From positions 1 to 43,440 of the IMG/VR virus record IMGVR_UViG_3300044695_004426: 43,440 bases of DNA; one strand, given 5' to 3'. The stretch comes from a virus. Both the position numbers and the translations under genes were made by a program. The notes under the pieces were generated by a model. The model was not told the DNA's origin. It saw nothing but the letters and a program-made list of their open reading frames with translations, and did not search any database. Each line of letters starts with the position of its first letter. Position 1 is the stretch's first letter. Positions 3,752 through 43,440 of this stretch are shown piece by piece.

Positions 3752-3755
<4 letters not shown>
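3423..3755 (+). CDS. BppU-N-like phage baseplate/fibre-associated protein
   Basis: 110 residues from GTG 3423. It begins with a [17 protein letters not shown] stretch and continues [11 protein letters not shown] and [12 protein letters not shown]. This beta-rich arrangement (a dimension-like 'polarised' N-domain, then a strand ending in KFVV) resembles the N-terminal domain of phage baseplate upper proteins that anchor receptor-binding proteins. It sits immediately before the collagen-like fibre and overlaps its start by 4 bases, so the two are probably made and assembled together. The assignment rests on pattern and position. Confidence 0.5.
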
Positions 3756-6930
<3,175 letters not shown>

Positions 6931-6934
<4 letters not shown>

Positions 6935-7243: not shown

Positions 7244-9793
7244 TTGCCGTCACGTTTCACCGCTCCCACGTCACGCCCCAACCGTCCCGCCCGTCGTGCG
7301 GTGACGGCATCCGCCCGTGTCCTCGAACTCACACCACGCCCCGATGCGCGACAAACAACGATCCCGGCGTGGCAGGAACAGGCGTGGACGTTCTTCGATC
7401 AGATCGGAGAGGTCCGGTACGGTGCCCGGTACTACGGCAACAGTTTGTCCCGGTTGCGGTTGTTTGTCGGGTGGCGTGAATCGGCGTCCGAACCGGTTGT
7501 CCCGATCGACCCCGAAGATCCACCAACCGGACTGCCTCGAGATCAGTACCTGCTGGCTCAGTCCGTAATCGCCCGACTTCACTCCACCGACGGGTCCGTG
7601 TCTGAGCTGCTGCGTGCGTTCGGTGTGAACCTGTTCGTGTCCGGTGAGGGATACCTGGTCGGGCGGATCGATCCTGAAACTGGTCGGGAACGGTGGGATT
7701 ACCTGTCTGTTTCGCAGGTGGTGTGGCAGGAGTCCCGTTGGAAACTTCGTGAGTCTGCGGGGGACACACCGGACCGGTTCGTGTCGTTAGACCCTGAACA
7801 GGACGTGGTGATCCGGGTGTGGCAGCCTCACCCACGGTTCGCTAATGAGGCGGACGCACCGATGCGGGCTGTGCTTACGGTCTGCGAAGAGTTGTTGTTG
7901 TTGTCTCAGAACGTGCGGGCGTCTGCTCTGTCACGGATCCCTGCCGGTATTCTTGTGATCCCGGACACGGCACTCGAGGGCGGTCCTGACGACTTGGATT
8001 CGTCGGGTGTGGATGGTGCGTCACGAGCCGACCGAACCATGTCCGACCTTGTGGATCACTTCATTACACCTATCTCGGATCCGGGTTCGGCGTCGGCGGT
8101 GGTTCCGTACCTGTTGGCGTTGGATCCTGCCGATGTGGACAAGGTGAAACTTATTGAAACGTCACGGTCGGTGGACGAGGTCGCCGCCGCCCAGCGTGCC
8201 GAACTGTTGGTGCGGTTAGCGAACGGTGTGGACCTGCCACCCGAGGTCCTGACCGGTATCTCGAACACGAACCATTGGAACGCGTGGCTCATTGACGAGC
8301 AGAGTTTCCGGTGTCACATGGCACCAGCGGCGCAACTGTTCTGTTCGGCGCTAACTGAGGGTCTGGTGTGGCCGACGATCTCGGCGTCTGGTCTGACACC
8401 GGATCCTCGTCTGGTTGTCGGGTTCGACGCCGCCGACCTGGTTGGTCACCCTGACCGGAAAGAGAACGCTAAGGACGGTCATACAGCGTTCGTGATCTCT
8501 GACGAGTCTTACCGTCGGGCGCTTGGGTTCGGTGATGAGGACGCACCGGATGAGGACGAGTATCGCCGTCGGGTGGCTCGGGCGCAGGGTACGCAGGCGT
8601 TGGCTCCGGTCGCGGTGGGTGAGATCGACTCGGTTGTTGAGTCGTTGCGGGTCGCTACTGGTCAGATCGCCGCGGGTGAGACTGAGGGTGCCGAGGGTGC
8701 CGAGGTGGTGGTCGATCAGTCCGGGTCGGGTGACGAACCGTCCGAGGTTGTGACGGGTCCACCACCGGAACCTGTGGTGGCGGCTGGAACGCCTGACGCC
8801 GACCGGTTCGGTGACCTGGTCGGGAAGATCGACCGTGCGTTGGTGGACCGGTTGGAGGCGTTGGCGTCGGCGTCGTTGCGTCGTGCGTTGGAACGGGCCG
8901 GTGCCCGGTTGCGGTCCCGTGTGTCCCGTAATCAGGATCTCAAACCGATGCTGGCCGAGACTGGTAACAGCGATCTGCCGTCCCTGTTGGGACGTGACGC
9001 CATCGTCGCTGCCGGTCTAACCGACGAGGATCTGTTGGACGGGACGGGCGATGACCTCGAGGACGAGTACCTGGCACTCGTCGGGTTGGCGCAGAAACGG
9101 ATCCGTACCTATCTGCGTGACGGTTTCGGGTTGGGTGAGTCGGAACTGGCAGCGTTGGAACTGAAACAGGAACAGGACCGGATCGCTGGTTGGGGTGTGT
9201 TGTCTGCTGGTTTGACGGCGTTGGCGACCTCGTTGTTGTACGACCCGCGACCGGGTCGGGGTGTGGATGCTGTCGGTGAGTTCGATCCGACGAGTCGTGT
9301 TCCGGGTGTGTTGGTTCGGGATACGTTGGTGACTGCTGGTGGCGGTGAGGTTGGTCCGTCGTCGTCGCCGGGTGAATCACCGTTGTCGCCTGTTGGTGTT
9401 CGCCCTGCCGGTACTGAACCGGGTGTGGTGGACGGTGCCGGTCCTGCCGCTGCCCCGTCGGTCCAGCCGACCTCGTCGGGTTTAGTGGGTGGTGGTGCGA
9501 CTGTTCGTGAGGCGGCGGCACGGGTCGGGTTGGCTCAGGTCGGGTTCGTGTGGGATTACGGCAACGCGTTACGGGCCACGTTCGAGCCTCACTTCGAGTT
9601 GGACGGCGAACGGTTCTCAGGGTTTGACGATCCGGCGTTGGAGAACCTGAACGACTGGCCGGCGACCCCGTTCCTGTATCCCGGTGACCATGACGGGTGT
9701 TTGTGTGTAGAACGCCCCATCTTCCGTGCGGTGGTTGTGTCCGGTGAGGTGGACGAGGACGACACGGAGGACGACGATGCCGAGGGTGCCTGA
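7244..9793 (+). CDS. portal protein fused to a MuF-like C-terminal domain
   Basis: 849 residues from TTG 7244, with AGGAGA at 7235-7240. The first 500 or so residues form an actinophage-type portal: WTFFDQIGEVRYGARYYGNSLSR, an RIxPETGRERWDYL turn, and a long helical stem. After a variable acidic linker, a helical stretch (about 520-640) leads to a low-complexity Gly/Pro-rich region. The C-terminus (about 765-830) reads FVWDYGNALRATFEPHFELDG and ends FLYPGDHDGCLC, the terminal module of Mu gpF/SPP1 gp7-type head morphogenesis proteins. The twelve portals form the DNA entry vertex; the MuF part is normally a separate protein packaged in the head. Confidence 0.85.
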   Translation: MPSRFTAPTSRPNRPARRAVTASARVLELTPRPDARQTTIPAWQEQAWTFFDQIGEVRYGARYYGNSLSRLRLFVGWRESASEPVVPIDPEDPPTGLPRDQYLLAQSVIARLHSTDGSVSELLRAFGVNLFVSGEGYLVGRIDPETGRERWDYLSVSQVVWQESRWKLRESAGDTPDRFVSLDPEQDVVIRVWQPHPRFANEADAPMRAVLTVCEELLLLSQNVRASALSRIPAGILVIPDTALEGGPDDLDSSGVDGASRADRTMSDLVDHFITPISDPGSASAVVPYLLALDPADVDKVKLIETSRSVDEVAAAQRAELLVRLANGVDLPPEVLTGISNTNHWNAWLIDEQSFRCHMAPAAQLFCSALTEGLVWPTISASGLTPDPRLVVGFDAADLVGHPDRKENAKDGHTAFVISDESYRRALGFGDEDAPDEDEYRRRVARAQGTQALAPVAVGEIDSVVESLRVATGQIAAGETEGAEGAEVVVDQSGSGDEPSEVVTGPPPEPVVAAGTPDADRFGDLVGKIDRALVDRLEALASASLRRALERAGARLRSRVSRNQDLKPMLAETGNSDLPSLLGRDAIVAAGLTDEDLLDGTGDDLEDEYLALVGLAQKRIRTYLRDGFGLGESELAALELKQEQDRIAGWGVLSAGLTALATSLLYDPRPGRGVDAVGEFDPTSRVPGVLVRDTLVTAGGGEVGPSSSPGESPLSPVGVRPAGTEPGVVDGAGPAAAPSVQPTSSGLVGGGATVREAAARVGLAQVGFVWDYGNALRATFEPHFELDGERFSGFDDPALENLNDWPATPFLYPGDHDGCLCVERPIFRAVVVSGEVDEDDTEDDDAEGA

Positions 9794-13067: not shown

Positions 13068-13124
13068 TGACCTGGTGGACTCGGTTCCGGGTTTCCGTTG
13101 TGGTTGTTGGGTTTCTGCCGGTAG

Positions 13125-13153
13125 TTGTGTTTGTGTTTCCTATGGTCTACGAT
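13125..13153 (+). promoter_or_regulatory. strong sigma70-type promoter, family member 1
   Basis: -35 TTGTGT (13125-13130), an exact 17-base spacer and -10 TACGAT (13148-13153). A 35-base stretch around it is identical to the promoter at 35175-35209, and the spacer ends TTTCCTATGGTC. The transcript would begin about 13160, at the foot of the leader hairpin, and drive the gene at 13204. Confidence 0.75.
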
Positions 13154-13154
13154 G

Positions 13155-13184
13155 GTGGTTGTTGAGGAACGGGTCCTCAACCAC
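13155..13184 (+). promoter_or_regulatory. leader hairpin with GGAACG-type loop
   Basis: GTTGAGGA (13161-13168) pairs with TCCTCAAC (13174-13181) around loop ACGGG. A 3-base bulge register also lets GTGG (13155-13158) pair with CCAC. The hairpin begins where transcription should start and is followed 9 bases later by the ribosome site AGGGAGCAGAC. The same hairpin occurs at 29580 and a variant at 35215. It may stabilise the mRNA 5' end or bind a regulator. Confidence 0.6.
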
Positions 13185-29503: not shown

Positions 29504-29543
29504 GTTCGGTTTGCCGTGTGTTTGTTGGGTTTGTGCCCGAAAC

Positions 29544-29572
29544 TTGTGTTTGTGTTTCCCGTGGTCTAGGTT
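29544..29572 (+). promoter_or_regulatory. strong sigma70-type promoter, family member 2
   Basis: -35 TTGTGT (29544-29549), 17-base spacer with TTTCCCGTGGTC, and -10 TAGGTT (29567-29572). Differs from member 1 mainly in the -10. It starts transcription of the accessory/recombination block just after the late terminator. Confidence 0.7.
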
Positions 29573-29579
29573 TGTGGTC

Positions 29580-35146: not shown

Positions 35147-35177
35147 TCCCTTGTGTTTATTGGTGTTTGGGGAATAG

Positions 35178-35206
35178 TTGTGTTTGTGTTTCCTATGGTC
35201 TACGAT
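35178..35206 (+). promoter_or_regulatory. strong sigma70-type promoter, family member 3
   Basis: -35 TTGTGT (35178-35183), 17-base spacer, -10 TACGAT (35201-35206). Thirty-five bases (35175-35209) match the promoter at 13122-13156 exactly. The leader has a variant hairpin TGGG (35215-35218)/CCCA (35224-35227) with loop AACGA, and the ribosome site AAGGAGCAGAC. Confidence 0.75.
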
Positions 35207-35249
35207 GGTCCACATGGGAACGACCCACACAACACAAGGAGCAGACAAC

Positions 35250-36722: not shown

Positions 36723-36871
36723 GAGGTTTACTGGTCGGGTCGGCGGTGATCGTGGCAGGGATCGGGTCGCCGTTTCTTGTGGAGTGGGCGGCGTCCACGG
36801 TGACAGGGTTTCTAGTATTCGCCACGGCGGTCGGTGTTTCGCTTAGCCTGCTGCTCCGTGGTTCTTCGTAA
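36719..36871 (+). CDS. tiny two-span membrane protein
   Basis: 50 residues from GTG 36719, coupled to the coiled-coil gene. Two hydrophobic segments (LLVGSAVIVAGIGSPFLVEW and VTGFLVFATAVGVSLSLLL) make up nearly the whole protein. Role unknown. Confidence 0.5.
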   Translation: MRGLLVGSAVIVAGIGSPFLVEWAASTVTGFLVFATAVGVSLSLLLRGSS

Positions 36872-37217
36872 CTGGTGGGAGCAGGCGGCGTGTCGAACGG
36901 ACGGGACCGAGCGTTGGTTCCGTCAGCACCGCACACAACAGGAAACAACGGAACTGGTTCGGGTGTGCCACGAGGTCTGCCCGGTTCAGGAAGAGTGTTT
37001 GTCGGAGGCGTTGGAACGGTGCGAACGGTTCGGGGTGTGGGGCGGTTACACCGAACCGGAACTGTTCGCCATCCGAACCAGGCGGTTCGGACGGTGCGTT
37101 GTTTGTGGTCGCCGCTGGCCGAAACCTAGTCTAAGGAAACCGACGCTTACCTGCCGGATCTGTCTTATCGAACAACTAGACAAGGAGAACGAACATGAAT
37201 CCACCATCGACCGCTGA
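36858..37217 (+). CDS. WhiB-like (Wbl) iron-sulfur regulator with extra zinc ribbon
   Basis: 119 residues from GTG 36858 (GTG 36834 is also in frame). The Wbl pattern is WWEQAACR (C12), VCHEVCPVQEEC (C37, C41, C47) and the RFGVWGGYTEPE turn. The central cysteines are C-x3-C, where Wbl proteins normally have C-x2-C. A second pair of knuckles, CVVC (80-83) and CRIC (99-102), adds a zinc ribbon to the C-terminus. Wbl proteins bind a [4Fe-4S] cluster and the main sigma factor; phage copies can steer host transcription. Wbl is confined to actinobacteria and their phages. Confidence 0.8.
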   Translation: MVLRNWWEQAACRTDGTERWFRQHRTQQETTELVRVCHEVCPVQEECLSEALERCERFGVWGGYTEPELFAIRTRRFGRCVVCGRRWPKPSLRKPTLTCRICLIEQLDKENEHESTIDR

Positions 37218-37629: not shown

Positions 37630-38217
37630 GTGAGGGTCGCTAAGGAACTGGACTCGTTGTTGTTCCCGGTGGGTGAACTGACCTCGTTGCCGGGGAACCC
37701 GCGACGTGGTGACGTGGACGCGGTCGCCCGGTCGTATGAACGATTCGGCCAACGGAAACCGATCGTGGCGAGACGCAGCGACGACGGAACGAACGTCGTT
37801 GTTGCCGGTAATCACCAACTCGAGGCGGCACGACAACTCGGGTGGGAACAGATCGCTGTCGTGTGGACTGATGATCTGACCGACGATCAGGCTAAGGCGT
37901 TTGCGTTGGCCGACAACCGGATCGCTGATCTCGGCACCTACGATAACGACGATCTGTTGGTGTTGTTGTCTGAGGTGGACGACTTGGACGGCACCGGTTA
38001 CACAACGGCAGACGTGGACGATCTGCGGTCCCTGCTCGAGTTCGATCCGATGGGATCCATTGACGATCTGATCGGTGAACTCGGAGACATGGACGGCACC
38101 GAGGGGAACGTCACCGTTCGGCTGGACGTCCCGTCGTATGTGGCGGACCAATGGAACGCCCACCGGAAGGGTTTCGATTCGGACGCCGAAGCGTTGTCGT
38201 ACCTGTTGGACAAGTGA
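37630..38217 (+). CDS. ParB/Srx-fold protein upstream of dpdA
   Basis: 195 residues from GTG 37630. Residues about 15-100 follow the ParB N-terminal domain: LTSLPGNPRRGDVDAVARSY, KPIVARRSDDGTNVVVAGNH, QLEAARQLGWEQIAVVW, then AKAFALADNRIADLG. The CTP-binding GxxR of partition ParB is VAGNHQ here, as in many phage ParB-like proteins. The C-terminal 80 residues are acidic and helical. It ends one base before the dpdA start, so the two are almost certainly cotranslated; it may recognise DNA sites or nick DNA for the base-exchange enzyme, which is my inference. Confidence 0.7.
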   Translation: MRVAKELDSLLFPVGELTSLPGNPRRGDVDAVARSYERFGQRKPIVARRSDDGTNVVVAGNHQLEAARQLGWEQIAVVWTDDLTDDQAKAFALADNRIADLGTYDNDDLLVLLSEVDDLDGTGYTTADVDDLRSLLEFDPMGSIDDLIGELGDMDGTEGNVTVRLDVPSYVADQWNAHRKGFDSDAEALSYLLDK

Positions 38218-38218
38218 C

Positions 38219-39169
38219 GTGGATAACGAACCGGTTTCTGTCCTGTTCTCGTATTGGTACTTTCAGAATCAGACACCGTTCGACAAGATCACGGCGGCGT
38301 TACGGGAAGCGACGAGGCGTGGCAGAACCGTTCGGGTGTTGGTGGACTCGGGCGCGTTCTCAGCAGATACGCAAGGTCACCGGATCTCAGTCGATGAGTA
38401 CGCCGACTGGGTTCGTGATCGGGTGGTTCCTGAGTGGGGTCCGTGGGTGGTTGGGTGCCTGAACTTGGATGTGTTGAGGAACCCGGAGGCGTCGTGGAAG
38501 AACTGGCGCAGGTTGGCGGATCGTGGTGTGGACACCATCCCGGTAACGCACATGGGCGACGGATCAGACGTGATCGACCGTTACGTCGCGACCGGTTCGG
38601 ATTATGTGGCGTTGGGCGCAATGGTCGGGAAGTCGATTACTCGGAAAGCTCGGTGGGCGGCTCACATCCATAAACACGTCCTAAGTAAGCATCCCGACGT
38701 GAGGTTGCACGGTTTGGGTTTGTCGAGTCAGGAACTGGTGGAACGGTTGCCGTGGTACTCGGTGGATTCGTCGTCGTTCGGGTCGGGTTACCGGTTCGCT
38801 CGGGCGTTGGTTTATGACCGTCAGTCCCGTAAGTGTGTGACGTTTCAGTTGTCGGGTGCGCCGCCTGAACGTTCGGTGTTGGAGATGATCCGTCGGGATT
38901 ACGGGTTGGCTTGGGACGACATTCGAGATCCTGGTGCCCATAATCGGCGGGTGTTGGTTCAGTTCGCGGCCCGTAGTTTGTTAGCGTGGCAGTATGATCT
39001 CCGCAGGTTTCGTCCGGTGACGGCACCACCGTCAAGGTCTGTTACCGGACCTCATGTGTCGTTCGTGGATGCTAATCCTGAACGGGCTGGTTGGTTGTTT
39101 GACGGTCCGCACATCACTCACGCCGACGGCAACCCGGTAGACACCGCAAACTACTTGGAGGCCCTATGA
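38219..39169 (+). CDS. dpdA: DpdA-type DNA guanine transglycosylase
   Basis: 316 residues from GTG 38219. It is a TGT-superfamily TIM barrel with VLVDSGAFSADTQG (D43), a NLDV element near 82-85, HMGDGSDVI, the loop YVALGAMVGKS, and HGLGLSSQE leading to WYSVDSSSF with D183, the counterpart of the TGT nucleophile. The divergence from tRNA-TGT and its linkage to preQ0-synthesis genes match the phage DpdA family, which swaps guanine in DNA for a 7-deazaguanine base. The gene overlaps queC by 4 bases. With no QueF or amidine-forming enzyme visible, preQ0 is the expected base. Confidence 0.8.
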   Translation: MDNEPVSVLFSYWYFQNQTPFDKITAALREATRRGRTVRVLVDSGAFSADTQGHRISVDEYADWVRDRVVPEWGPWVVGCLNLDVLRNPEASWKNWRRLADRGVDTIPVTHMGDGSDVIDRYVATGSDYVALGAMVGKSITRKARWAAHIHKHVLSKHPDVRLHGLGLSSQELVERLPWYSVDSSSFGSGYRFARALVYDRQSRKCVTFQLSGAPPERSVLEMIRRDYGLAWDDIRDPGAHNRRVLVQFAARSLLAWQYDLRRFRPVTAPPSRSVTGPHVSFVDANPERAGWLFDGPHITHADGNPVDTANYLEAL

Positions 39170-39819
39170 CCGCCCTCGTTGTCTTGTCCGGTGGGATGGA
39201 CTCGGTGACCGCTTTAGCGTTCGCTAACGCCACACACACCACCGTCCACGCACTCACCGTCGATTACGGGCAACGACACGACCGGGAGATCAACGCCGCT
39301 GAGGTTCAGGCGGCACGGTTCGCAGACCGGCACGACGTTCTCAGCCTCCGTCGGATCGGCGGCCTATTGGAAGGGTCAGCACTCACCGACACCGTGCCCG
39401 TCCCTGAGGGTCACTACTCGGACGACACGATGCGGGCAACGATCGTCCCGAACCGAAACGCCATCCTCGCCAACATTGCCGCAGGGGTAGCGGTCGCTCG
39501 AGGACTGGACGCTATCGTTCTCGGTGTTCACGCCGGCGACCACCCGATTTACCCGGACTGCCGACCCGAGTTCGTTACCGCCCTCCAACAACTGTTGTCC
39601 GTTGCAAACGACCACCAGGTCAGGGTGGAGGCACCGTTCCTGAACACCGACAAGGCCGGGATCTTACGGGTCGGGTTGGCTCTCGGTGTCGATTACGCCG
39701 ACACTTGGACCTGTTATCAGGGTCGGGACCGGGCGTGCGGTCGGTGCGGTTCGTGTGTGGAACGGTTGGAAGCGTTCGCCGAGATCGGTCGTGAGGACCC
39801 GTTGGAGTACGAACCGTGA
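39166..39819 (+). CDS. queC: 7-cyano-7-deazaguanine synthase QueC
   Basis: 217 residues from ATG 39166. The ATP pyrophosphatase loop is LSGGMDSVTAL near residues 7-17, followed by LTVDYGQRHDREI and IVPNRNAILANIA. A four-Cys zinc site is TCYQGRDRACGRCGSCVER. QueC uses ATP and ammonia to turn 7-carboxy-7-deazaguanine into preQ0. Length and motifs match bacterial QueC. It is coupled to dpdA before and queD after, so it provides the substrate for DNA modification. Confidence 0.92.
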   Translation: MTALVVLSGGMDSVTALAFANATHTTVHALTVDYGQRHDREINAAEVQAARFADRHDVLSLRRIGGLLEGSALTDTVPVPEGHYSDDTMRATIVPNRNAILANIAAGVAVARGLDAIVLGVHAGDHPIYPDCRPEFVTALQQLLSVANDHQVRVEAPFLNTDKAGILRVGLALGVDYADTWTCYQGRDRACGRCGSCVERLEAFAEIGREDPLEYEP

Positions 39820-40271
39820 CGTACCGGTCCGGCAAGACATTCACACACGAAGTCGGGTTGTCGGCGGCGTTCAGACAATGGCGAGCCGAGTCCCATTGCC
39901 GGTTCCTTCACGGATACGCACTCAGTTTCACGTTCACGTTCCAAGCAACCGACCTAGACGACAACGGTTGGGTCGTGGACTTCGGAGGACTGAAACTGTT
40001 GCGCCGCTGGTTGGAGGACACGTTCGACCACAAGACGGTCATAGCGTCCGACGACCCCGAACTGGACTGGTTCGAGCACGCCGACCGGGTTGGACTGTTG
40101 GACCTGGTGATCCTCGACGACGGTGTCGGATGTGAACGATTCGCTAAACACGGTGCCGACCTCGCAACACGATTCCTGTACGAAACAGACCTGAACGACC
40201 GGGTCCGGTTGGTGTCGTGCCGTGTCGCAGAACACGGAGGCAACTTCGCTGAGTGGGTGGAGGATCCGTGA
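39816..40271 (+). CDS. queD: 6-carboxytetrahydropterin synthase QueD, variant zinc site
   Basis: 151 residues from GTG 39816. It is a tunnelling-fold protein with the catalytic Cys28 in SHCRFLHGYALSF and the catalytic pair DTFDHKTV (about residues 68-75). The canonical HGH is HGY here (Y34), and the usual AAHR near residue 18 is AAFR, so two zinc-ligand positions differ from standard QueD; His27 and His32 remain. The sequence otherwise fits a QueD subclass, with NGWVVDFGGLK typical. It converts dihydroneopterin triphosphate to 6-carboxytetrahydropterin. Confidence 0.8.
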   Translation: MTYRSGKTFTHEVGLSAAFRQWRAESHCRFLHGYALSFTFTFQATDLDDNGWVVDFGGLKLLRRWLEDTFDHKTVIASDDPELDWFEHADRVGLLDLVILDDGVGCERFAKHGADLATRFLYETDLNDRVRLVSCRVAEHGGNFAEWVEDP

Positions 40272-40972
40272 ACACGCTCACCGTGTCCGAGATCTTCGGA
40301 CCAACCATTCAGGGTGAAGGCCCGTCAATGGGTAGGCGGGCAGCGTTCGTCCGGTTAGGGCGATGTAACCTGAACTGTTCGTGGTGCGACACGCCGTTCA
40401 CTTGGGACTGGACCGGTCAGAACGGCACCGTGTTCGACCCGTCCACAGAGCTTGCGTCGATACCGGTCGGAGAGGTTGCCGACACCGTCCGTGAGATGGG
40501 CGTTCGCCTACTCGTCGTCACCGGTGGCGAGCCGATGATCCAGCAACGCAAGATCTCTGAACTTGTGGACCTGTTGGACGGGATCACAACCGAGGTCGAA
40601 ACGAACGCCACGATCGTTCCGATCGCCGCAACGACGGACGCTGTCGCCCGATACAACCTGTCTCCGAAACTGGCGAACTCAGGCATCCCGCACCGGCAAC
40701 GCATCTCCGACGAGGCGATCGCCGCCTACCTCGAAACCGGGAAAGCGATCCTAAAGTTCGTGGTTCAGACCGCCGCCGACGTGGAAGAGATCGAACACCT
40801 AACCGACCGGCACAACATTGACCCCGACCTGGTGTGGATCATGCCGGAAGGCCGAACACAACCTGAGATCATGGCGGCGTCACAACACGTCATGGAACAG
40901 GCGATCAGTCACCGTTGGAACTACTCGTCCCGACTGCATGTGTTGGGGTGGGGTGATCGGAGGTCGGTGTGA
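40268..40972 (+). CDS. queE: 7-carboxy-7-deazaguanine synthase QueE
   Basis: 234 residues from GTG 40268, coupled to queD. It is a radical SAM enzyme with C33-x3-C37-x2-C40 (CNLNCSWC) after the GPTIQGEGPSMG loop, and a VVTGGEPMIQ motif that contacts SAM. QueE contracts the ring of carboxytetrahydropterin to 7-carboxy-7-deazaguanine. The C-terminal half, IMPEGRTQPEIMAASQHVME, fits QueE well. The longer ORF from 40253 adds no conserved sequence. Confidence 0.9.
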   Translation: MNTLTVSEIFGPTIQGEGPSMGRRAAFVRLGRCNLNCSWCDTPFTWDWTGQNGTVFDPSTELASIPVGEVADTVREMGVRLLVVTGGEPMIQQRKISELVDLLDGITTEVETNATIVPIAATTDAVARYNLSPKLANSGIPHRQRISDEAIAAYLETGKAILKFVVQTAADVEEIEHLTDRHNIDPDLVWIMPEGRTQPEIMAASQHVMEQAISHRWNYSSRLHVLGWGDRRSV

Positions 40973-41874
40973 CCAGCAGGGACGTTGTAACGATCAGTTG
41001 GGACACCGTTCAGGTCGAAGCGAAACGGTTGGCGGCACGATGGGCGTCCCGACGACACACGATCACCGGTGTCTACGGGGTCCCTACGGGTGGCGCACCG
41101 GTCGCAGCGTTAGTCGCCGGACACCTCGAGGTCCCCATCATGGACGACCCCGACCCGACCGCCCTCGTTGTGGATGACCTTGTGGATACCGGACACACTT
41201 TGACCCGATACCAACAGTTAGGACGCCTCACCGACGCCCTGTTCCGCAAACCTCACTCCCCGACCAACCTTGCACCCGAAGCAACCGAACTGGACGGGTG
41301 GTTAGCGTTCCCGTGGGAAAGATCAGACGGGGCACCAACCGACGCAGTAACACGGATCATTGAATGGGTAGGTGAGGACCCCACCCGCGAAGGTCTGATC
41401 GACACACCGAAACGGGTCGCTAAGGCGTACCGGGAACTCACCGAAGGTTACGACCACGACCCGGCACAGATCCTGTCCACCGTGTTCGACGAACCATGCG
41501 ACCAGATGGTCATTCTCGACCGGATCGACTTCACGTCCCTCTGCGAACACCACCTACTCCCGTTCATCGGCACGGTGTCCATCGGTTATGTACCGGACGG
41601 CAAAGTCGTCGGGTTGTCGAAACTGGCACGGATCGTGGACTGCTACGCACGCCGCTTCCAGATCCAAGAACGACTCACCAACCAGGTTGCCCAAGCACTC
41701 CAAGACCACCTAAACCCTGCCGGTGTCGCCGTGATCGTCCGTGCCCACCATTCATGCATGTCGCTTCGAGGTGTCCGCAAAGCAAACGGGCAGATGGTCA
41801 CGTCCGCCATGTTGGGGGTGTTCAGGACCAGTCCTGAGGCCCGAGCCGAGTTCACGTCGGCGCTTACACCCTGA
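40969..41874 (+). CDS. folE: phosphoribosyltransferase-GTP cyclohydrolase I fusion
   Basis: 301 residues from GTG 40969. Residues 1-118 are a type I phosphoribosyltransferase: the PRPP loop ALVVDDLVDTGHTL (65-78) follows an N-terminal GVYGVPTGGAPVA loop and ends at DGWLAFPWE. Residues 124-298 are GTP cyclohydrolase I with zinc ligands C192 and H195 (CEHHLLPF) and C263 (HHSCMSLRG), and QIQERLTNQVA. FolE makes dihydroneopterin triphosphate, the first precursor for QueD. The fused transferase could salvage guanine to GMP and thus feed FolE; that link is inferred. Confidence 0.88.
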   Translation: MTSRDVVTISWDTVQVEAKRLAARWASRRHTITGVYGVPTGGAPVAALVAGHLEVPIMDDPDPTALVVDDLVDTGHTLTRYQQLGRLTDALFRKPHSPTNLAPEATELDGWLAFPWERSDGAPTDAVTRIIEWVGEDPTREGLIDTPKRVAKAYRELTEGYDHDPAQILSTVFDEPCDQMVILDRIDFTSLCEHHLLPFIGTVSIGYVPDGKVVGLSKLARIVDCYARRFQIQERLTNQVAQALQDHLNPAGVAVIVRAHHSCMSLRGVRKANGQMVTSAMLGVFRTSPEARAEFTSALTP

Positions 41875-41916: not shown

Positions 41917-42381
41917 ATGGCTCTCACCAACGATCAGAAACAGAACATTGTGGATCTCAGGTTGTCGGGTGTCACGGTCCGGCAGATTCAGGATCAGACC
42001 GGGCACTCAACAAACACGGTGCAACGGGTGTGGTCGGAGTATCTGCGGGCGTCGGCGGTGGACCGTCGGGAAGAGGTCGAAGCTCGCCGGGAGGAACTGA
42101 TCTTGCGGCACGAACGGATCGCTGATCGTGCCCGTGTGGAGGCCGCCAAGTTTCGTCGCAAGGTGGATCAGGAATCGGGGCGGGTTCTCGTGGACGGGAA
42201 TCCGTCTGCTTACGCCCGTTTGCTGCGGGAGGAACGGGACGCGTTGCGGGAGGTGGCCCGCCTGACCGGTGCCGACGCCCCGGTGCGGGTCGAACATTCC
42301 GGTTCGGTTGGTGTGGACCTGTCACCGGACCGGGAGGCCCTGTTCCATCGCCTCATGTCCCTCGCCGGGTCTGTGAACTAG
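41917..42381 (+). CDS. terminase small subunit
   Basis: 154 residues from ATG 41917. An N-terminal HTH (IVDLRLSGVTVRQIQDQTG, then HSTNTVQRVWSEYL) is followed by a long charged coiled coil (RREEVEARREELILRHERI) and a short C-terminal tail likely to touch the large subunit. The position directly before, and sharing a base with, the large terminase supports this call. It binds the packaging site on concatemeric DNA. Confidence 0.75.
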   Translation: MALTNDQKQNIVDLRLSGVTVRQIQDQTGHSTNTVQRVWSEYLRASAVDRREEVEARREELILRHERIADRARVEAAKFRRKVDQESGRVLVDGNPSAYARLLREERDALREVARLTGADAPVRVEHSGSVGVDLSPDREALFHRLMSLAGSVN

Positions 42382-43440
42382 TGACAGATCTTCGGTCGGT
42401 GGTGAACGCCGCTGGTGGTGATCCTGACCGGTTGCGGCGGTTGGTTGAGTCGTTGTCCGACGACGAGGTGTTAGCGGTCCTCGAGGACTGGTCGCCGGGA
42501 CCTGGTCAGGTTCCACCGGAAGGCGAGTGGGGAATCTGGTTGTTTCTTGCCGGTCGTGGTGCCGGTAAGACTCGTGCGGGTGCCGAGTGGGTCAAGAACC
42601 GGGTTCGGGAGTTGGCTCCGTCGGTGTCGGGCACGGTTCGTGGCGGGATGGTGGCACCGACGTTGGACGATGTTCGGTCGGTCATGGTGGAAGGCGACTC
42701 GGGTTTGTTGTCGATTCTGCCGCCGTCAATGCTGGTGAACGGGTCGGTGGAGGACTCGTGGAACCGTGGCCCGTGTGAGCTTCGGTTGGATACCGGGTCA
42801 GGGGTGGCGTTCGTGCGTGGGTACTCGGCGGAACGTGCCCGACGGTTACGAGGTCCGCAGCATCATGTGGTGTGGATCGACGAACCGGCAGAGTTTCGGG
42901 ACGCCCGGTTGGGTTTAGGTGAGGACACCACCGCGGCAATGGCTCTGATCGGGTTGCGGTTGCCGCCTGATCCACGGATGGTCGTTACCGGTACACCGAA
43001 GAACGTTCGTCTGATCCGTGACCTGTTGGCCCATCCGTCCACGGTTCGGACCACGGCAACCACCTACGACAACCTCCACAACCTCGGTGACGACTACCGG
43101 GCACGGGTGATCGACCGGTACGAGGGCACCAGGTTGGGGCGTCAGGAACTTTATGCCGAACTCTTGGAGGAGGCGGGCGGTGCGTTCTCCCGTGACTGGT
43201 TCCCGATCGTGGACGAACCGTTGGGAGGTCGCCTGATCCGTGGGTGGGACTTGGCGGCGACTGAACCCTCCGACTCGAACCCGGACCCGGACTGGACGGT
43301 CGGTGCGTTGGTGGCGTGGGATCCTGACGCTCAGGCACCAGGCGGGCGGCGTGGAATGTTGCAGGTCCGGCATGTTGCCCGGTGGCGGGCCGGTCCCGGT
43401 TCGACTCAGGACCGGTTCCTCGAGATGTGTCGTGAGGACC
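42381..43440 (+). CDS. terminase large subunit (truncated by window end)
   Basis: At least 353 residues from GTG 42381, open at the right edge. Walker A is AGRGAGKT (57-64) and Walker B is HHVVWIDEPAE (D167, E168), with coupling sequence VVTGTPKN after it. The nuclease domain begins with RLIRGWDLAATEP near residue 283, with the first catalytic aspartate. It cuts and pumps DNA into the portal. The remaining nuclease residues lie beyond the window. Confidence 0.9.
   Translation, partial: MTDLRSVVNAAGGDPDRLRRLVESLSDDEVLAVLEDWSPGPGQVPPEGEWGIWLFLAGRGAGKTRAGAEWVKNRVRELAPSVSGTVRGGMVAPTLDDVRSVMVEGDSGLLSILPPSMLVNGSVEDSWNRGPCELRLDTGSGVAFVRGYSAERARRLRGPQHHVVWIDEPAEFRDARLGLGEDTTAAMALIGLRLPPDPRMVVTGTPKNVRLIRDLLAHPSTVRTTATTYDNLHNLGDDYRARVIDRYEGTRLGRQELYAELLEEAGGAFSRDWFPIVDEPLGGRLIRGWDLAATEPSDSNPDPDWTVGALVAWDPDAQAPGGRRGMLQVRHVARWRAGPGSTQDRFLEMCRED

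Follow-up and report, generated by a model that had tools for sequence, protein, structure and literature searches.

A compact phosphoribosyltransferase-like domain fused to GTP cyclohydrolase in a phage preQ0-in-DNA operon, with guanine salvage as its likeliest role

The linear virus record IMGVR_UViG_3300044695_004426 (43,440 bp, analyzed at full length and called the window here) carries a phage preQ0-in-DNA gene set of an already known type and, joined to the enzyme of its first step, a domain that is apparently an undescribed recurring component of phage 7-deazaguanine clusters. The operon comprises six genes on the plus strand at positions 37630 to 41874, encoding a ParB-like protein, DpdA, QueC, QueD, QueE, and a fusion of a phosphoribosyltransferase (PRT) domain with the GTP cyclohydrolase FolE. 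An initial annotation had proposed a six-gene preQ0 operon ending in such a fusion, and both proposals hold: every open reading frame (ORF) is present at its coordinates, the families are matched in Pfam and PHROGs, and the last gene resolves into an XGPRT-like domain followed by FolE. Taken as a whole, we consider it likely that this is a preQ0-in-DNA operon in which guanine salvage is the leading candidate role for the domain that precedes FolE.

The fusion gene spans positions 40969 to 41874. Its N-terminal ~119 residues (40969 to 41325) form a compact domain resembling XGPRT (Gpt), as judged from PDB matches, the PRK09177 model, residue conservation, and a structural model. A single-sequence search of the PDB with the domain returns XGPRT structures first (1a98 and 1a95, at 1.5e-5), and a seven-member profile of the domain matches XGPRT, GpT-1/2, and HGPRT, plus two marginal unrelated structures (E values of ~0.007 to 0.009). 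The NCBIfam xanthine phosphoribosyltransferase model PRK09177 (XPRT) matches at 4.3e-10, under its curated cut-off. Conservation was assessed across 88 nonredundant relatives in E. coli Gpt numbering. Residues D88, D89, and G94 of the phosphoribosyl pyrophosphate (PRPP) motif, the pyrophosphate-loop glycine G39, and W139 are present in 100% of these relatives, W134 in 98%, T96 in 95%, and K115 in 87%. The window counterparts of D88 and D89 are D69 and D70. From general knowledge of XGPRT, we take K115 to contact the base, W134 to stack, and Gpt residues 58 to 79 to be the flexible loop. The domain keeps the PRPP motif and the purine-binding Lys and Trp and lacks the flexible loop of XGPRT/Gpt; we therefore term it Gpt-like and do not count it as an XGPRT member. 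The model of the fusion is confident, with a predicted local distance difference test score (pLDDT) of 92.8 overall and ~95 across most of the PRT domain. Because the Foldseek matches listed for this model span the FolE part alone, it is by sequence that the fused domain is assigned as a PRT, and by this measure it is 6-oxopurine phosphoribosyltransferase-like.

The domain is a recurrent companion of GTP cyclohydrolase in phage 7-deazaguanine clusters. Among sequenced phages, 35 records were found to have it: in Pseudomonas, Stenotrophomonas, Xanthomonas, Variovorax, and Vibrio phages it is fused to FolE, and in Flavobacterium phages it is encoded by its own gene beside folE. Searches of IMG/VR with either the domain or DpdA as the query each keep the best 80 matches, a sample that may carry selection bias and in which the loci are partly related. 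With the domain as the query, 73 of the 80 loci carry FolE and 4 carry FolE2, which is unrelated to FolE, giving a cyclohydrolase in 77; QueC, QueD, or QueE is encoded in 69 and DpdA in 48, as detected with two DpdA profiles. The domain is fused in 20 loci, and 43 of the 57 unfused PRT genes that accompany a cyclohydrolase lie within 400 bp of it, some upstream and some downstream. The seven loci without FolE consist of the four with FolE2 (PF02649), one 4-kb fragment, and two with neither cyclohydrolase. All four FolE2 loci (L041:6-419, L048, L049, and L062) are 7-deazaguanine clusters in which FolE2 (GTP cyclohydrolase IB) lies 81 to 234 bp from a compact XGPRT-like gene, and because four of the seven FolE-less loci carry FolE2, the domain follows the cyclohydrolase. 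In the last two (L047:7001-7324 and L101:1462-1827), neither FolE nor FolE2 was detected over the full length of the contig, and the surroundings of the compact XGPRT-like gene contain no Que or DpdA genes.

The DpdA query, which is independent of the domain, yielded 71 loci with FolE, 38 of which also carry the domain (fused in 35). When 25 records lacking the domain were searched over their full length, it was still not found; six positive records were detected in the same test. Among 80 bacterial FolE loci used as a control, there was one clear fusion, in a locus that is itself phage-like and has ParB-, QueD-, and QueE-like genes, and one further locus gave a 17-bit match, so that at most 2 of the 80 have the domain. 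The difference between phage loci with DpdA and FolE (38/71) and bacterial FolE loci (1/80) gives a Fisher p of 7e-15, a value that ignores relatedness. The idea that the domain tracks DpdA rather than the cyclohydrolase was rejected, as DpdA loci without FolE had no PRT except for one truncated contig. In a quick FolE tree, the fused, free, and absent states require at least 10 changes, with gain and loss indistinguishable. A control search for full-length Gpt in viruses, with E. coli Gpt as the query, was uninformative, its single match being 99% identical to Gpt.

The gene at positions 38219 to 39169 (GTG start, 316 residues) is assigned to a DpdA-type DNA guanine transglycosylase. In PHROGs the protein matches only two phage families, both "queuine tRNA-ribosyltransferase" (phrog_7068 at 7.8e-45 and a second at 3.5e-39), and there is no match to the Pfam tRNA-guanine transglycosylase (TGT) model. 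A DpdA profile whose training set included Saguaro and 9g and left out the window protein scores 219.9 bits on the latter, 342 bits on phage 9g DpdA, and -0.7 bits on E. coli TGT. Residues D43 (DSGAF), D84, and D183 (SVDSSS) are invariant in an alignment of 16 diverse phage DpdAs, and both catalytic aspartates are present in the window protein, in which a motif check did not find the TGT zinc motif C-x-C-x2-C. The predicted fold, a TGT-like barrel modeled with moderate confidence (pLDDT 76.5), is best matched by tRNA-guanine transglycosylases in Foldseek. Neither a PDB sequence search nor an IMG/VR search with this single protein returned a match; the first mixed DpdA alignment was too diverse, and a narrower one was used for the IMG/VR search. 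The TIM-barrel TGT fold and the adjacent preQ0 genes would also suit an enzyme that acts on tRNA in the queuosine pathway, but the score of E. coli TGT on the DpdA profile, the lack of both the zinc motif and a Pfam TGT match, the ParB-like partner, and the occurrence of its closest relatives in phages that have 2'-deoxy-preQ0 (dPreQ0) in their DNA make that highly improbable. The profile comparison was the check that could have moved the protein from the DpdA family, where the initial annotation had put it, to tRNA-TGT, and its outcome was DpdA. From these sequence comparisons, we regard the protein as a true phage DpdA. Several other phage loci (L016:670-2543, L134, L138, L143, and L168) have two tandem or nearby dpdA genes, some with more than one ParB-like gene, which suggests paired DpdAs with distinct targets.

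Immediately upstream, positions 37630 to 38217 encode a ParB/Srx-like, putatively DpdB-like protein of 195 residues. It matches phrog_723 (6e-42) and ParB_N (1.4e-5, slightly below the cut-off) and is 42% identical to the ParB-like neighbor of dpdA in Rhodococcus phage Finch. A gene for a ParB N-terminal domain adjoining dpdA is the arrangement expected of a DpdB-type protein. In CRB2, a ParB-family protein beside dpdA was interpreted as a DpdB homolog (PMC6392294), and ParB-type domains are frequent companions of DNA-modifying enzymes (PMC12783734).

The remaining genes would supply the base. The predicted preQ0 synthase QueC (39166 to 39819) has an SGGMDS loop and a Cys4 zinc motif and is matched by PF06508 (1e-62) and by TIGR00364 above its cut-off; no GAT domain was found in it, so that it is the plain form. 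The QueD-like 6-carboxytetrahydropterin synthase (39816 to 40271; PF01242 at 1.4e-15, phrog_2389 at 1.3e-41) is a CxxxHGY/FRQW variant in which the first His before the Cys motif is also absent. HGY-type QueDs occur in 49 of the ~149 loci with a QueD match, which are mostly phage, and not in Saguaro, Finch, 9g, or NP1; the variant is likely to have a QueD-like function. Its best matches are the QueDs of cyanophages and proteobacterial phages, and the operon therefore looks mosaic. QueE (40268 to 40972), a predicted radical-SAM 7-carboxy-7-deazaguanine synthase, contains CNLNCSWC (CxxxCxxC) and is matched by phrog_2076 (2.6e-55), TIGR03365 (1.5e-26), and the Pfam radical-SAM model (2.5e-08). 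Its ORF could begin at 40253, but the GTG at 40268 restores a 4-bp overlap with QueD and is the likelier start because this overlap matches the other junctions. The C-terminal FolE part of the fusion (41338 to 41874), a predicted GTP cyclohydrolase IA, is matched by PF01227 (3.9e-74). It is 46 to 52% identical to GTP cyclohydrolase I proteins of solved structure, on which the model superposes at a root-mean-square deviation of ~1.2 Å, and it has the T-fold and the CEHH and HSC zinc ligands (CEHH...HxC) of the family.

A DpdA homolog together with FolE, QueD, QueE, and QueC is the gene set of the Rosebush/CAjan type, which yields dPreQ0. Rosebush and CAjan encode DpdA and FolE/QueD/QueE/QueC without an amidotransferase, dPreQ0 amounts to ~28% of G in Rosebush DNA and ~32% in CAjan DNA, and in CAjan DpdA is needed for the modification (PMC6884629). 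In the window phage, FolE, QueD, QueE, and QueC would similarly make preQ0 from GTP, and DpdA would exchange guanine for preQ0 in the phage's own DNA, with the ParB/DpdB-like protein probably assisting its action there; preQ0 in virion DNA should in turn shield it against restriction enzymes. By analogy with these two phages, preQ0 is the expected base, which agrees with the initial annotation. That annotation had further stated that no QueF or amidine-forming gene is present. Indeed, there is no QueF, Gat-QueC, or ArcS among the main or scanned ORFs of the window, a statement that holds only for an incomplete contig. With the record incomplete, its TerL cut, and end products that differ among phages of this type (PMC6884629), the final base might instead be a preQ0 derivative made by the host or by a gene outside the contig. 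We find this unlikely, given that no scanned ORF encodes QueF, ArcS, or a GAT domain, that QueC is of the plain form, and that Rosebush, with the same gene set, has dPreQ0.

What the Gpt-like domain contributes may lie in the fate of the displaced base. DpdA frees one guanine per insertion, as established for transglycosylases, and this recycled base is therefore a natural guanine source. The domain would convert guanine and PRPP to guanosine monophosphate (GMP), which host kinases would raise to GTP, the substrate of the fused cyclohydrolase; the fusion could thereby recycle the guanine leaving DpdA and clear a competitor from the DpdA active site. The proposal that the domain salvages guanine, probably that released by DpdA, back to GMP and GTP for the cyclohydrolase seems to us evenly poised. 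Somewhat more tentative is the full recycling version, in which a loop-less guanine phosphoribosyltransferase with FolE or FolE2 captures the guanine expelled by DpdA and returns it via GTP into preQ0. At 28 to 32% modification, we estimate that ~7,500 to 8,600 guanines would be freed per copy of the contig, and if 100 phages are produced per cell and the cell volume is on the femtolitre scale, the freed guanine would, by estimate, near millimolar concentrations. If recycling does occur, the modification would be partly self-feeding, and the leaving base would be unable to compete with preQ0.

Several observations weigh against this interpretation. The flexible loop, which normally closes the active site of phosphoribosyltransferases, is gone from the window protein and from most relatives (91 to 99% gaps over residues 58 to 77), so catalysis is not assured, and the pyrophosphate-loop R37 is replaced by Thr in the window protein. 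The occurrence of the domain is tied more closely to GTP cyclohydrolase than to DpdA, a pattern that regulation of FolE would also account for, and about half of the DpdA operons do without it, including mycobacteriophage operons shown to modify DNA. At the level of the operon, only one of the three canonical zinc His residues remains in QueD, and the contig is incomplete. Noncatalytic phosphoribosyltransferase folds exist as regulators, PurR being one, and the domain might likewise regulate GTP cyclohydrolase by sensing PRPP, GMP, guanine, or ppGpp. Such a role would accord with the loss of the catalytic loop in nearly all relatives and with the 77 of 80 loci in which the domain is fused to, or lies beside, FolE or FolE2. 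We nonetheless doubt it, since the residues in contact with the purine base and with PRPP hardly vary and since free-standing copies occur on either side of folE or between queC and queD, which would be odd for an obligate regulatory subunit. A third possible role is ribosylation, in which the domain would turn preQ0 or its precursor, as a 7-deazaguanine intermediate, into the nucleotide and the modification would proceed partly via nucleotides. The retained 6-oxopurine pocket residues and the almost constant setting within 7-deazaguanine clusters are compatible with this, but the same operon encodes DpdA, which uses the free base, and the domain accompanies the first step (FolE) and not QueC or DpdA, making ribosylation distinctly improbable. 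Guanine salvage is thus the role that we favor.

The genes of the operon are tightly packed. The initial annotation had described them as running head to tail, overlapping except at the first junction, and leading straight into the terminase genes, and it was correct on each count. A 1-bp gap separates the ParB-like gene from dpdA, and the remaining junctions through PRT-FolE are 4-bp overlaps (ATGA or GTGA) when QueE starts at the GTG at 40268. The PRT-FolE stop codon lies 42 bp upstream of a plus-strand gene at the small-terminase position (41917 to 42381), which encodes a helix-turn-helix (HTH) protein (phrog_645 and HTH matches) at the place equivalent to TerS in Saguaro. The large terminase gene follows on the same strand (42381 to 43439; PF03237 at 4.3e-18) and is cut by the window end with its ORF open; the missing TerL C terminus is not at the record start, and the genome is therefore incomplete. 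The capsid and WhiB proteins are matched by actinobacteriophage proteins and the GC content of the window is ~62%, so that an actinobacterial host is likely. The WhiB-like regulator gene (36834 to 37217; PF02467 at 1.8e-15) lies a short distance upstream of the operon. Elsewhere, a group-1 glycosyltransferase gene (231 to 1238; PF13692 at 1.2e-8), possibly for virion glycosylation rather than DNA modification, is found near a collagen-like (Gly-X-Y) tail fiber gene (3752 to 6934; 1,060 residues) with more than 120 copies of a 9-nucleotide periodic repeat. A 63-nucleotide repeat, possibly a common promoter or regulatory element, occurs three times in or near intergenic gaps (13094 to 13156, 29513 to 29575, and 35147 to 35209), with copies 1 and 3 being 83% identical. 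Scans for tRNAs and Rfam families gave no matches.

The use of 7-deazaguanine DNA by phages against restriction has been studied, and the parts list of this strategy so far, as we found it, consists of FolE, the Que genes, DpdA, and tailoring enzymes. We found no description in the open-access literature of this phosphoribosyltransferase combined with phage 7-deazaguanine clusters, and the matching papers that were read deal with nicotinamide/nicotinate PRTs; NAR 2023 gkad657 was outside this search, and because the search was limited to open papers, priority is not firmly claimable. About half of the sampled DpdA operons have a PRT that accompanies the cyclohydrolase, whether this is FolE or FolE2, which suggests that base exchange has a guanine/GTP economy that is so far unstudied. 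Further, many phage "FolE" annotations conceal a second domain.

Compared with E. coli Gpt, the window domain shares the PRPP motif, the pyrophosphate-loop glycines, the base lysine, and the stacking tryptophan, whereas it lacks both the flexible loop of Gpt (~22 residues) and its C-terminal tail and is fused to FolE. DpdA and DpdB of the bacterial dpd island are, as in the window, a pair of a transglycosylase and a ParB-family protein (PMC6392294), but the bacterial DpdA differs, as the NCBIfam model for it (NF041059) gives just 16.6 bits on the window protein against a cut-off of 200. The gene order of the window recurs in Saguaro, Finch, Sour, PenguinLover67, and Ares, mostly directly before the terminase. 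Rosebush and Saguaro, which are cluster-B mycobacteriophages (Bclasvirinae), likewise have ParB-like, DpdA, QueC, QueD, QueE, and FolE genes before the terminase; unlike the window fusion, their FolE genes (564 to 576 bp) lack the PRT domain, their QueD has the canonical CxxxHGH in place of CxxxHGY, and their DpdAs are only ~32 to 34% identical to that of the window. Flavobacterium phage immuto has the same QueD variant as the window and encodes its compact XGPRT-like protein (131 residues) separately, directly upstream of folE, but its DpdA is of another subfamily and its cluster also includes genes for a QueF-like protein and a formyltransferase. The Queuovirinae NP1, PaMx25, VpKK5, 1.207.B, and their relatives differ in gene order (QueE-QueC-QueD-PRT.FolE-DpdA), in having no ParB-like gene, and, for NP1, in carrying Gat-QueC where the window QueC is plain. 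Their PRT domains are only 31 to 35% identical to that of the window, yet these phages carry a homologous PRT-FolE fusion directly beside dpdA, annotated solely as GTP cyclohydrolase.

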